A stretch of DNA of 34,056 bases, taken from Gemmatimonadota bacterium. GTDB lineage: Bacteria > Latescibacterota > UBA2968 > UBA8231. Where the stretch lies: NCBI GenBank assembly GCA_002712305.1, contig PATE01000082.1:1-34056 (forward strand), written 5' to 3'. The notes beneath the pieces were generated by a model, which worked only from the letters and a program-made list of their open reading frames with translations, had not been told where the DNA came from and made no database searches. The position numbers were made by a program, and so were the translations under genes. Positions 193 to 8,099 of this stretch are shown piece by piece. Position 1 is the stretch's first letter, and each line of letters opens with the position of its first letter.

Positions 193-1323
193 ATGGCCAA
201 ACTCGACTACTACGAGGTTCTGGGTCTCGACAAGAGCGCGGATCAGGACCGGATCAAGGGTGCCTACCGCAAGCTGGCTCTCAAATACCACCCCGATCGC
301 AATCCCGATGACAGTGAAGCGGAAGCGAGCTTCAAAGAGGCGTCAGAGGCCTACGAGGTCCTCAGCGATGAGGAGAAGAAGGCCAACTACGATCGCTTCG
401 GTCACGCCGGGGTTCAGGGGAACTTCGGAAACGGTGGTTTCCAGTGGTCGGACTTCTCTCACGCCACCGACTTCGAAGACATCTTCGGCAACATCTTCGG
501 AGGAGGCGGACGGCGATCGCGGGGGCCGAGTGGCCCGCCCAAAGGGCGAGACCTCCGCATTGCGCTGACGTTGTCTCTGGAGGAGGTCACCGTCGGTGTT
601 GAGAAGAAGATCAATCTGCAGCGGATGAAGGGGTGTGACGTCTGCGGCGGTGACGGTGCGGCGCCCGGATCGACGCCAAAGCAATGCCAGACGTGTGGTG
701 GTATCGGACAGGTTCAGCAGGTCTCCCGTTCCTTCTTCGGACAGCAGGTGACGGTGGGCGCGTGTCCAACCTGTCAGGGCGAAGGACAGATGGTCAGTGA
801 CCCCTGCCGTGAGTGTGCGGGCGAAGGACGCGTGCGGGACAAAACGACGATCACCGTTCGCATCCCGGCGGGTGTCAGCACAGGTAACTACATCCCCCTC
901 CGCGGACAGGGCGATGCAGGTCCCCGAGGTGGATCACCGGGGGATGTGCTCGTGTTCATCGAAGAGGAGGAACACGAACATTACACGCGCGAGGGTAACG
1001 ACGTCATCTATCGATTGCCCATCAGTATCAGTCAGGCAGCCCTCGGTGACGAAGCGGAGGTGCCGACGCTGCACGGCGCCGTCAAGATGAAGATCCCCGA
1101 GGGAACGCAGACGGGCCGCGTGTTCCGGCTGAGAGGAAAGGGGATTCCCGACGTCGATGGGCGAGGGATCGGCGATCAACTCGTGGAGGTGCTGGTTTGG
1201 ACGCCCACCCAGCTTACGCCGGAGGAACGCCGTCTGTTTGGTGAACTCGACGAGATCCATCAGCAGCGAGCCAGTTCAGAAGGCAAGAGTTTCATCGATC
1301 GCATGCTCGAAGCCTTCGGCTAG
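193..1323 (+). CDS. dnaJ: Chaperone protein DnaJ (Hsp40)
   Basis: This is a full-length type I DnaJ of 376 aa, the usual length. The J domain (about residues 4-70) has the HPD tripeptide at 33-35 that stimulates the DnaK ATPase. A Gly/Phe-rich linker follows (FGNIFGGGG). The zinc region has four CxxCxGxG repeats (CDVCGGDG, CQTCGGIG, CPTCQGEG, CRECAGEG). The two C-terminal beta-barrel substrate-binding domains come next (VRIPAGVSTG, GDVLVF and KIPEGTQTG). The protein delivers unfolded clients to DnaK in the cytoplasm. The ATG at 193 follows the dnaK stop with no gap. No grpE or hrcA is in view, and any heat-shock promoter must lie upstream of the window. Confidence 0.97.
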   Translation: MAKLDYYEVLGLDKSADQDRIKGAYRKLALKYHPDRNPDDSEAEASFKEASEAYEVLSDEEKKANYDRFGHAGVQGNFGNGGFQWSDFSHATDFEDIFGNIFGGGGRRSRGPSGPPKGRDLRIALTLSLEEVTVGVEKKINLQRMKGCDVCGGDGAAPGSTPKQCQTCGGIGQVQQVSRSFFGQQVTVGACPTCQGEGQMVSDPCRECAGEGRVRDKTTITVRIPAGVSTGNYIPLRGQGDAGPRGGSPGDVLVFIEEEEHEHYTREGNDVIYRLPISISQAALGDEAEVPTLHGAVKMKIPEGTQTGRVFRLRGKGIPDVDGRGIGDQLVEVLVWTPTQLTPEERRLFGELDEIHQQRASSEGKSFIDRMLEAFG

Positions 1324-1359
1324 TCGACATGAATCCTGCACAGGAGATTGGGTAGCCCG

Positions 1360-2163
1360 GTGGACTTTCCACGTACCCTTCCCGAAGGTGGAGACGTTCT
1401 TCCCGGTGTGGCCAATGCCGTGGCGATCGCAAGTGCGAAGGGCGGGGTTGGCAAGTCAACTGTGGCCGTCAATCTCGCTCTGGCCCTGGCTGCCGATGGG
1501 GCTCGGGTTGGGCTCATGGATGCAGATATCTATGGCCCAAGTCTTCCGCTTATGCTTGGATTGCGTGACGCGCCCGAAATGGATGACGAGGGGCGTATCC
1601 GACCTCTACAGGCGCACGGTGTCTCGACCATGTCCATGGGATTTCTGGCTGAGGAAGACGCACCCGTCATCTGGCGTGGCCCCCTGCTCGGTCAGGCGAC
1701 GCAGCAGTTCCTGCAGCAGGTCGATTGGGGTGAGCTCGATATTCTACTGATCGACTTGCCGCCAGGAACCGGTGACATTCAACTGACCCTGAGTCAGATT
1801 GTCGCCCTCAGCGGCGCTGTGATCGTGACCACGCCACAGGCGGTTGCTCTTGAGGATGTGGAGCGTGGCATCGCGATGTTCGACAAGGTCGAGATCGAAA
1901 CCCTCGGCATCGTTGAGAACATGTGCTTCTACGTCTGTCCCCACTGCGACCAGAAGCATGCCCTTTTCGGTGAGGGAGGGGGCCAGAGTATAGCGGACAA
2001 GGCCGGTGTCGATCTGCTGGGCCAACTCCCCCTCGACGAACGACTTCGAGCAGCTGGTGATTCCGGGACCCCGCTGATCGTCTCCGACCCGATGGCTCCG
2101 CAAAACAAGGCCTTTACGGACGTGGGCCAAGCGCTCGTGTCGGCGCTTTCAGAGCTGACATGA
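1360..2163 (+). CDS. mrp: Mrp/NBP35 (ApbC) family Fe-S cluster carrier ATPase, short form
   Basis: This is a P-loop NTPase of the ParA/MinD superfamily with the deviant Walker A AKGGVGKST, MDADIYGPSLP, and LLIDLPPGTGD as Walker B. The Mrp-specific CPHC pair (ENMCFYVCPHC) is present and should bridge a 4Fe-4S cluster between two subunits. Mrp/ApbC proteins bind and transfer Fe-S clusters to target apoproteins. The N-terminal MIP18 (DUF59) domain of longer Mrp proteins is absent; about 267 aa remain. The start is uncertain. GTG 1360 sits 13 nt after AGGAG (1342-1346), while TTG 1348 is only 1 nt from it. An 8-codon ORF (1329-1355) ends just before the GTG and contains the ribosome-binding site. 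The stop overlaps the next gene, an Fe-S protein and a plausible client. Confidence 0.93.
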   Translation: MDFPRTLPEGGDVLPGVANAVAIASAKGGVGKSTVAVNLALALAADGARVGLMDADIYGPSLPLMLGLRDAPEMDDEGRIRPLQAHGVSTMSMGFLAEEDAPVIWRGPLLGQATQQFLQQVDWGELDILLIDLPPGTGDIQLTLSQIVALSGAVIVTTPQAVALEDVERGIAMFDKVEIETLGIVENMCFYVCPHCDQKHALFGEGGGQSIADKAGVDLLGQLPLDERLRAAGDSGTPLIVSDPMAPQNKAFTDVGQALVSALSELT

Positions 2164-2576
2164 CAACGGCCATGGGCCGTGTGCGGCGTTGGGCGAGGCG
2201 ACGATCGCTAAGTATGCTTCCTGTGGGCACCACGTGCTGCGCAGCAGAGCTTGATGCTGCCATGGGGCCTGCTTTTGACCCCCCGCACAAGGGCATCGAC
2301 ATCGTGACGGACCCCGGAGTTGCTGACCTACTCGTGGTGGCGGGGCGGATCAGCCAGCCCCTTGCCGAGGAACTGGTCCTCCTCTACGAGGCAATGCCAT
2401 CGCCGGCCACGGTCATCGCCTTCGGCGCGTGTGCCATGACGGGAGGGGCCTGGGGCGAACATGGCGAAACGGTAGATCTGTCCACCCTGATGGCCGTTGA
2501 CATCCACATACTCGGGTGCGCGCCTCCTCCCCAACATCTCTACGAGGCCATCGAGCGTCTTCGCCACGACCAGTAG
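2160..2576 (+). CDS. Orphan NuoB-like (NADH dehydrogenase 20 kDa subunit/hydrogenase small subunit) Fe-S protein
   Basis: A 138-aa protein whose ATG overlaps the mrp stop (ATGA). It carries the complete cysteine pattern of the NuoB/[NiFe]-hydrogenase small-subunit family. VGTTCCAAEL (C26, C27) matches the tandem-Cys motif, DLLVVAGRIS matches NuoB DLMIVAGT, FGACAMTGG carries C91, and HILGCAPPPQHLYEAI carries C120. The C27-C91 and C91-C120 gaps (64 and 29) are nearly those of NuoB cluster N2 ligands (65 and 29 in E. coli). A 4Fe-4S cluster is therefore expected. No other Nuo or hydrogenase subunit is nearby, and the protein is shorter than NuoB. Family membership is well supported by motifs, but the function is unknown. 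Coupling to mrp suggests that Mrp loads its cluster (inference). Confidence 0.8.
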   Translation: MTTAMGRVRRWARRRSLSMLPVGTTCCAAELDAAMGPAFDPPHKGIDIVTDPGVADLLVVAGRISQPLAEELVLLYEAMPSPATVIAFGACAMTGGAWGEHGETVDLSTLMAVDIHILGCAPPPQHLYEAIERLRHDQ

Positions 2577-2698
2577 CACCTTGCTGCCCAGGCCAAGCCC
2601 CCCGTATCTTTGCCCAAGGCGTGTTTCCCCCTCGCCCTTGCGGTGATTCCTTCTCCGCATCCTCCCCGAGCCTTGTCTCTCTGACCTGGATCGGATTC

Positions 2699-3610
2699 GT
2701 GCCAGCTACCGTGCCTACCCAGGCGACAGAAGCAGGCCCCCGTCGCTGGCACCGCGTCGACATCGTGGTCCCAGAGGATGTGGCCGAACTGCTCGCTGCC
2801 GAGTGTTTCGAACTGGGTAGCTGTGGCCTGCAGACCGAAGCGGTCGGTGATACTCATACGCGTCTGACTGCCTTTTTCGACGAAGACAACTCGCCGGATA
2901 CCATTCGCACCGGCCTGAATCTGGCAGTTGAGCGAGTGGATTGTGAGCGGCCTGAGATTCTGATCTCGGAGGAGGTCGCCTCCGATTGGAATGCCGAATG
3001 GCGTCGCTTCTACGAACCAGTCTGGGCGACAGAGAGCATCGTCGTCCATCCACCGTGGATTCCCGTCGATACCCTGCCGGGGCAGATGGCGATCGTTATC
3101 GATCCGGCCATGGCCTTTGGCACGGGGGGACATGAGTCGACGCAGACGGCACTGGCTGGGCTTGAGGATACGCGACTCGAAGATCGACGAATTCTTGACG
3201 TAGGTACCGGCTCTGGCGTGCTGGCCATCGCCGCATGCCACCTCGGTGTCACATCCCTTGTCGGCGTAGATATCGATCCGATCGCCATCGACAATGCGCG
3301 TCTGAATCTGCACGCGAATCTGGGAAGCGAGCACGTCTCCCAACGAGTCGTTCTGCAGCAAGGCAGTGCCGAGGACGCTGGCGATGAACCCTTCGACGTC
3401 ATCGTCGCCAACATTGAAGGCCACATTCTATTGCCGATGGTACCGGTGCTCATGCAGAAACTCGCCCCCGGTGGATGTATCATTTTCGCAGGTCTGCTGC
3501 GGAAAGAAGAGCGCGCCTTCATTGATGGACTCGTCTCAGCCGGTCTGACCATCGATGGCCGTTGGCAGCGAGACGATTGGTTCAGTTGCCGAGCGCGTCC
3601 GGTGGAGTAA
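2699..3610 (+). CDS. prmA: Ribosomal protein L11 methyltransferase
   Basis: PrmA uses S-adenosylmethionine to methylate ribosomal protein L11. From GTG 2699 the protein is 303 aa, within the family range. An N-terminal L11-recognition domain (residues 14-85) is followed by DWNAEWRRFYEPVWA at the family-typical linker. Next come MAFGTGGHEST, SAM motif I DVGTGSGVLA (168-177), acidic GVDIDP (D191) and the catalytic-region motif NIEGH (238-242), where NIL is more usual. The frame is open back to 2516, inside the previous gene. That extension is Pro/Ser-rich and unlike any PrmA N-terminus, so I place the start at GTG 2699 (GTG 2711 is an alternative). Neither has a strong Shine-Dalgarno. The next gene, rsmE, also acts on the ribosome. 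Confidence 0.94.
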   Translation: MPATVPTQATEAGPRRWHRVDIVVPEDVAELLAAECFELGSCGLQTEAVGDTHTRLTAFFDEDNSPDTIRTGLNLAVERVDCERPEILISEEVASDWNAEWRRFYEPVWATESIVVHPPWIPVDTLPGQMAIVIDPAMAFGTGGHESTQTALAGLEDTRLEDRRILDVGTGSGVLAIAACHLGVTSLVGVDIDPIAIDNARLNLHANLGSEHVSQRVVLQQGSAEDAGDEPFDVIVANIEGHILLPMVPVLMQKLAPGGCIIFAGLLRKEERAFIDGLVSAGLTIDGRWQRDDWFSCRARPVE

Positions 3611-6914: not shown

Positions 6915-8099
6915 GTGAAACTCGATGCTCAGCATCTGAGTGAGGCGACGATCGCCGAGATCGAGGAGCTGTTGGCACGCCGCGGAGGGGCGGGTCGCAC
7001 GGTCCTGGCCCTGTTGGAACAGGATGCCCGCGCCGGCGTTCGACGTCTCGCCGTGCGGGAGCGCCAACGTCTTCGTCGGCGAGAAGCTGAGCAGCGACGA
7101 CTGAGGTGGATCCGACAGCATGAGGACGGTCTCTGGTCGACTCAGATGACGCATGTTGCCGGTGTCGACGAAGTGGGAAGGGGATGTCTGGCGGGGCCCG
7201 TCGTAGCCGCGGCCGTGATTCTTGCACCCGGCACGCGCCTGAAGGGGGTGGACGATTCGAAAGTTCTTGACCCGCCCGAACGTCAGGCATTGCGACGACA
7301 GATCGAGGCGGACGCCATCGCGTGGCACGTGGCCGTCGTGTCGGCGGCTCGCATCGATCGGATCAACATCCTGGAGGCGTCTATGGAGGCGATGCGCGTC
7401 GCTCTCGACGGACTCCAGCCTGCCCCGCAGCACGTGCTCGTGGATGGCAATCGATCACCAGGTAGTTCGTTTCCCGAAACCCTGCTGGTCGATGGCGACG
7501 CGAGATCGATGAGCATTGCCGCTGCGTCGATCGTCGCCAAGGAACATCGTGATGAACTGATGGTGGCCCTCGACGGGCTTCACCCGGGCTACGGATTCGC
7601 CAGCAACAAGGGGTACGCGAGCCCCGGCCATCGGGACGCCTTGCTGAATCATGGTCCCTGTGCGGAGCACCGATACAGCTTCTCGCCTCTGGTCGAACGC
7701 GACCAGTTGCAGTTGGGGTTCGGCGGAGTGTCTCCAAAGATCCCGGAGACCGGGCCCACCGGCGAATCTGCTGCAGCCGCCTATCTGGAAACCCTTGGAT
7801 ATGCAATCGAAGATCGCCGATACCGCGCAGCAGGTGGGGAGATCGATCTGGTCGCCAGAGATGGAAGGTGCTGGGTCTTTGTCGAGGTAAAATCGACGGC
7901 CGTAGCTGGGGAACGGAATCACCCGGAAACCCGTCTGTCTTCAGCACAGCGGCAGCGATTGATGCGCGCCGCCAAGCACTTTCTACGAGTGCGCGCCAGC
8001 GACACAGAATGCCGATTCGATGTGGTCGCTGTCGATATGTCTTCGACACCCGTTCACATCGAGCACTGGACGGACGCGTTCACAGCAGATGGACGATAG
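6915..8099 (+). CDS. rnhB: Fusion protein: ribonuclease HII plus YraN (UPF0102) nuclease-like domain
   Basis: A 394-aa protein joining two genes that are often neighbours. Residues 1-75 form an Arg-rich helical extension like that of long Bacillus-type RNase HII. Residues 80-262 are RNase HII: GVDEVGRGCLAGPV (D85, E86), LVDGN (D177), GD (D195) and SMSIAAASIVAKEHRD give the DEDD metal site that cuts RNA-DNA junctions to remove ribonucleotides and primers. Residues 283-380 are YraN: ESAAAAYLETLGY, GGEIDLVARDG (E309, D311), VFVEVKS (E324, K326) and RFDVVAVD, a PD-(D/E)XK-like fold of unclear role. About 20 residues link them with no internal stop. The start is GTG 6915 with no clear ribosome-binding site. 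Confidence 0.93.
   Translation: MKLDAQHLSEATIAEIEELLARRGGAGRTVLALLEQDARAGVRRLAVRERQRLRRREAEQRRLRWIRQHEDGLWSTQMTHVAGVDEVGRGCLAGPVVAAAVILAPGTRLKGVDDSKVLDPPERQALRRQIEADAIAWHVAVVSAARIDRINILEASMEAMRVALDGLQPAPQHVLVDGNRSPGSSFPETLLVDGDARSMSIAAASIVAKEHRDELMVALDGLHPGYGFASNKGYASPGHRDALLNHGPCAEHRYSFSPLVERDQLQLGFGGVSPKIPETGPTGESAAAAYLETLGYAIEDRRYRAAGGEIDLVARDGRCWVFVEVKSTAVAGERNHPETRLSSAQRQRLMRAAKHFLRVRASDTECRFDVVAVDMSSTPVHIEHWTDAFTADGR

Follow-up and report, generated by a model that had tools for sequence, protein, structure and literature searches.

The window, which is the whole stretch of DNA analysed (34,056 nucleotides), lies on contig C1 of a 4.77-Mb genome assembled in 146 contigs (G000). The genes and sites under study are as follows.

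193..1323, + strand: dnaJ, the upstream neighbour of mrp (Pfam DnaJ domains; synteny)
1348..2163, + strand: mrp/apbC, a P-loop Fe-S cluster carrier and NUBPL/Ind1 relative (PF10609 NUBPL/ParA, E 7e-99)
2160..2163, + strand: ATGA overlap of the nuoB start and the mrp stop (sequence; the mrp TGA is at 2161-2163)
2160..2576, + strand: nuoB-like gene, a candidate relocated and divergent NuoB of 138 aa (PF01058, AF2/Foldseek match, codistribution with NuoCD2)
2235..2240, + strand: codons of C26-C27, the tandem Cys of the N2 site (sequence and alignments)
2430..2432, + strand: codon of C91, an N2 ligand (sequence; invariant in A3)
2517..2519, + strand: codon of C120, an N2 ligand (sequence; invariant in A3)
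2516..3610, + strand: ORF with prmA (ribosomal L11 methyltransferase), the downstream neighbour (PF06325, E 3e-57)

The start of mrp is either the TTG at 1348 or the GTG at 1360, and the true start of prmA is probably near 2700. Synteny comparison revealed a conserved hrcA-grpE-dnaK-dnaJ-mrp order. An earlier note on this DNA had reported that the ATG of the nuoB-like gene overlaps the mrp stop, and the ATGA at this junction, which confirms that report, suggests that the two genes are translationally coupled. In G001 the gene starts with GTG and overlaps mrp by 4 bases; in G015 and G013 the two genes abut or overlap; and in G005, G009, and G012 a gap of 15 to 19 bases separates them. When the window ORFs were compared by BLAST with two nuo operons and a SUF set, no further complex I subunit was found, as the note had also stated. 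The ABC-ATPase match in this check is unrelated.

The ORF at 2160 to 2576 matched Oxidored_q6 (PF01058) with an E value of 5e-18 and a score of 65.5 bits, the cut-off being 27. In an alignment with solved NuoB/NdhK chains, C26, C27, C91, and C120 fell on the N2 ligand positions, and they were invariant in all 6 of the 6 g1 and g5 orthologues. An AlphaFold2 (AF2) model had a pLDDT of 83.5 and a pTM of 0.80, and the top Foldseek matches of this model were complex I NuoB/PSST/NdhK chains (TM by query of about 0.83 to 0.85, E down to 8e-13). Domain match, alignment, and predicted fold therefore agree with the N2-type cysteines first described for this 138-aa protein. The protein shares with NuoB/Nqo6/PSST/NdhK, the complex I B subunit, the PF01058 fold, four N2 ligands with matching spacing, and a candidate NuoD-type partner in the genome. 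Unlike these proteins, it is encoded after mrp, lacks SPRQ, carries CxC in place of the tandem CC in genus g7 (G013), and falls below the NCBIfam NuoB cut-offs (95.2 versus 142.7 for TIGR01957 and 109.3 versus 116 bits for PRK06411). It is therefore a divergent NuoB. In g1 orthologues, the SPRQ motif has changed, as has the PGCPPRPE consensus at the C terminus, and thus the contact with NuoCD2 could also have changed.

G000 contains two PF01058 genes, the canonical gene on C58 and the mrp-linked gene on C1, and two NuoD genes, on C58 and C81. The earlier note had raised the matter of a full nuo operon elsewhere in the genome, and the result went against its reading: there is a canonical operon on C58, plus a divergent second operon on C81. 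The C58 operon has its own canonical NuoB, which rules out the mrp-linked gene as the only NuoB of G000; this operon yielded no E, F, or G gene. On C81 (L063), the order is nqrABCDEF, an NqrM-like gene, and then nuoA-CD-E-F-G-H with further membrane subunits to N, and both nuoB and nuoI are absent from the operon. We refer to the product of this second operon as complex I-2. The nqr-nuo operon is also present in G001 (C73, L064), G005, G009, G012, G015, G013, and G019, several of these being fragments cut by contig ends. The C81 operon shares the A, CD, E, F, G, H, and N-type gene order of nuo operons with fused nuoCD and NuoEFG. Unlike the usual nuo operon, it is linked to nqr, and the B and I subunits of its complex are encoded elsewhere. 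The NuoI-like gene of G000 (NuoI2) is on C102 (L168:7186-7572), between rny and dxr. NuoI2 occupies the same position in G001 (C71), G013 (C60), G009, G015, and G012, and G007 likewise retains one; the search missed it in G005 and G019, both of which are highly fragmented. In G043, a NuoI-like gene lies after rny, near a superoxide dismutase gene.

Among the 25 genomes of family f1, the mrp-linked NuoB was found in 8, representing three genera (G000, G001, G005, G009, G012, G015, G013, and G019, the last counted although its gene is cut by a contig end). NuoCD2 is present in exactly the same 8 of the 25 genomes. The chance of such a match is about 9e-7 by hand calculation, a value that assumes independent genomes and that, since the genomes are related, makes the match look stronger than it is. 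All genomes are MAGs, so that absences carry some risk, and because of this and their shared phylogeny, the eight carriers are not eight independent events. G007 (C26, L127) has no NuoCD2, and its NuoB after mrp is a relic from which an internal deletion has taken out the C91 region. At the junctions read in g4, g7, and other f1 genomes outside the eight and G007, prmA directly follows mrp and there is no NuoB. G003, whose mrp copies scored lower, was left out of this reading. In G013, the mrp-linked NuoB is the only NuoB-like gene and NuoCD2 is the only NuoD-like gene, and therefore the complex of this genome cannot borrow a canonical one. A sole NuoB with the remaining nuo genes elsewhere is the situation that the earlier note had named as contrary to its own proposal, and it is what G013 has.

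In a NuoB tree built from all rows, the mrp-linked clade was on long branches and had no firm placement; AU tests on a trimmed set of NuoB rows were more informative. A topology uniting the mrp-linked NuoBs with the canonical NuoBs of their own genomes was rejected (p-AU 0.006), and one uniting them with operon-type B2 was not (p-AU 0.086). Joining the mrp-linked clade to the g4 NuoBs also escaped clear rejection (p-AU 0.07), and the tree alone therefore does not settle the origin of the mrp-linked NuoB. The clade of mrp-linked NuoB and outgroup B2 is weakly supported (89/72 with two phylum-level rows) because of the long branches. Between G000 and G001, for which dS is saturated, dN was 0.285 for the mrp-linked NuoB, 0.297 for NuoCD2, 0.309 for NuoG2, and 0.206 for NuoF2, compared with 0.118 for the canonical NuoB, 0.093 for Mrp, and 0.075 for DnaJ. 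In the close pair G005-G009, the dN/dS of the mrp-linked NuoB was 0.16 at a dS of 0.34. These values indicate that the mrp-linked NuoB shares the evolutionary tempo of complex I-2 and that purifying selection acts on it. The gene is not a chance occurrence, being conserved at this locus in three genera and kept under such selection.

Outgroup genomes of families f3 and f4 retain an arrangement with nuoB inside the operon: G044, G046, G045, and G035 have nuoA-B-CD-E-F in one operon, and G042 has nuoB-CD-E-F. The operon NuoBs of the outgroups are among the closest matches of the mrp-linked NuoB outside f1, at 36 to 38% identity versus 33% for the canonical NuoB of its own genome. We assign the ORF at 2160 to 2576, with a probability of roughly 85%, as the N2-cluster B subunit of a divergent second complex I, the remaining subunits of which are encoded on other contigs (C81, with NuoI2 on C102). 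The grounds are its homology and N2 ligands, the lack of nuoB in the C81 operon, a distribution and a tempo that match those of complex I-2, and the presence of nuoB in the outgroup operons. "Orphan" NuoB genes can thus be displaced subunits of a second complex.

The earlier note had favored an orphan, that is, a stand-alone Fe-S protein, perhaps a redox relay or cluster client. In such a reading, the protein would work with Mrp as a redox relay or cluster carrier and would need no large subunit. A very short protein that has lost SPRQ, whose gene is coupled to mrp and whose parent complex has lost catalytic residues, would suit such a role. We nevertheless consider it improbable, since a partner large subunit is encoded in the nuoB-less operon on C81 with the same distribution across the 25 genomes, the gene is absent or decayed in f1 genomes outside the eight that have NuoCD2, and its tempo is that of NuoCD2 and NuoG2, not that of Mrp, which persists in genomes without the mrp-linked NuoB. 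Even less probable is that the protein replaces the usual NuoB of the canonical C58 complex I in certain conditions. Although the canonical complex is present in 6 of the 8 carrier genomes, G013 has the mrp-linked NuoB and no canonical complex, canonical operons of g4 occur without the mrp-linked NuoB, and complex I-2 would be left without a B subunit of its own.

The protein belongs to the same superfamily as the small subunits of hydrogenases and formate hydrogenlyase-type enzymes and has a weak FrhG match (E 1e-4), but complex I NuoB/NdhK proteins are its best matches in both structure and sequence, and we give a function of this kind almost no credence. A hydrogenase small subunit is disfavored in G000 by the absence of a NiFe large subunit (PF00374), which is likewise absent from G005 and G015. 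PF00374 NiFe hydrogenase large-subunit genes are present in G001 (C75) and G009 (C181), where they are unlinked to the mrp-linked NuoB.

The state of complex I-2, to which we assign the mrp-linked NuoB, was read from alignments. Residue roles in NuoF2 were assigned via Thermus Nqo1. In NuoF2, N92 is replaced by D, D94 is replaced by S or L, GEET is lost and NN is replaced by HT in g1 and g5, and the N3 cysteines are kept; NuoF2 of G013 has kept GEET, and part of its FMN site is retained. All four N1a cysteines are present in NuoE2, the inspected N1b, N5, and N4 motifs are kept in NuoG2, and NuoI2 has eight cysteines in 3 of 3 aligned rows. The HPxTHG loop of NuoD2 is missing in all f1 rows shown and present in G043, G046, and G025, and the position equivalent to Tyr87 is Tyr in most rows and Trp in G015. 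High degeneracy marks the NuoL2, NuoM2, and NuoH2 sequences of G000, in which antiporter Lys/Glu positions are changed, the NuoH2 reading being tentative since its ORF is a poor match (E 0.027). The g1 complex I-2 therefore lacks what marks a functional respiratory complex I, namely, the FMN/NADH site, the HPxTHG loop, and the antiporter Lys/Glu. The FMN-site and His-loop losses extend to g5. In outgroup f4, the FMN/NADH-site, HPxTHG, and antiporter residues are kept in the subunits inspected.

As in a nuo operon with fused nuoCD, the Fe-S ligands of E, F, G, and I are present where inspected; unlike the usual complex, that of g1 and g5 is without the FMN-site and quinone His residues, and that of g1 is also without the antiporter residues. 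The Fe-S ligands are thus the conserved part of complex I-2, as if it were an electron wire with changed ends, and the complex points to a derivative of complex I that has kept the Fe-S chain and lost both catalytic ends. The suggestion of the earlier note that the protein is something other than a respiratory subunit was half right: complex I-2 has lost most residues for NADH oxidation, quinone reduction, and pumping.

A mechanism consistent with the gene order can be proposed. The mrp-linked NuoB (NuoB2) would be translated from the mrp message and would receive its [4Fe-4S] N2 cluster, presumably from Mrp. Synthesis from the mrp message may help Mrp to load the NuoB2 cluster prior to assembly, after which NuoB2 would bind NuoCD2 and electrons would pass through N2. 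We know of no settled bacterial factor that loads cluster N2. By analogy, Mrp could plausibly load N2 directly, and the maturation by Mrp that the earlier note suggested for a cluster client may yet hold. Ind1/NUBPL is an Mrp-family protein and a complex I assembly factor (PMC6196649). Loss of ind1 leaves about 28% of complex I and causes a Q-module intermediate to accumulate, and NUKM, which is orthologous to NuoB, has been reported in one Q-module intermediate (PMC6196649). In mitochondria as here, an Mrp-family ATPase is tied to complex I Fe-S maturation, although here the tie is one of gene order only. In Helicobacter pylori, ApbC (Mrp) was reported to bind 29 of 37 Fe-S proteins in a two-hybrid system (PMC8144621). 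NuoB is named there among the FdxA interactors, and the ApbC interactome as given there is therefore not evidence for direct Mrp-NuoB contact.

A second displacement of nuoB was found in genus g12 (G038 L175, G040 L176, G041 L177, and G043 L041:8936-9499), where nuoB is inside a SUF locus with the order sufB-C-D-S-U-T, rrf2, nuoB, hesB-nfu. The SufS, SufT, Rrf2, NifU, and HesB domains were confirmed in the G043 locus, and nuoB is absent from the nuo2 operon of G043, as read. G046 (L184) has both an operon nuoB and a SUF nuoB, 91 to 92% identical to the G043 protein, and this two-copy state looks like a duplication intermediate. These arrangements indicate that the nuoB of complex I-2 has moved twice, independently, into Fe-S assembly loci, that of mrp in f1 and that of SUF in f4, and two such relocations suggest selection without proving it. 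In G025 (f2), a B2-type NuoB is in yet another place, with a hexapeptide transferase, a canonical NuoB, and a nuoI-like gene in its vicinity, and thus not every displacement of nuoB ended at an Fe-S locus. We put forward, as a speculative reading that is possible but on balance unlikely, that selection twice moved the gene for the N2 subunit to an Fe-S biogenesis operon, so that the protein would be made at the site of cluster delivery, and that the f1 complex is an Fe-S electron wire without the NADH site, quinone His, and proton-pump residues, linked to Na+-NQR. The bacterial mrp-nuoB pair and the independent suf-nuoB pair provide a natural system for asking whether Mrp/Ind1-type ATPases load N2 directly.

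Elsewhere in the window, positions 6915 to 8099 contain an RNase HII-like ORF, the C-terminal stretch of which resembles, by eye, a UPF0102/YraN fusion.
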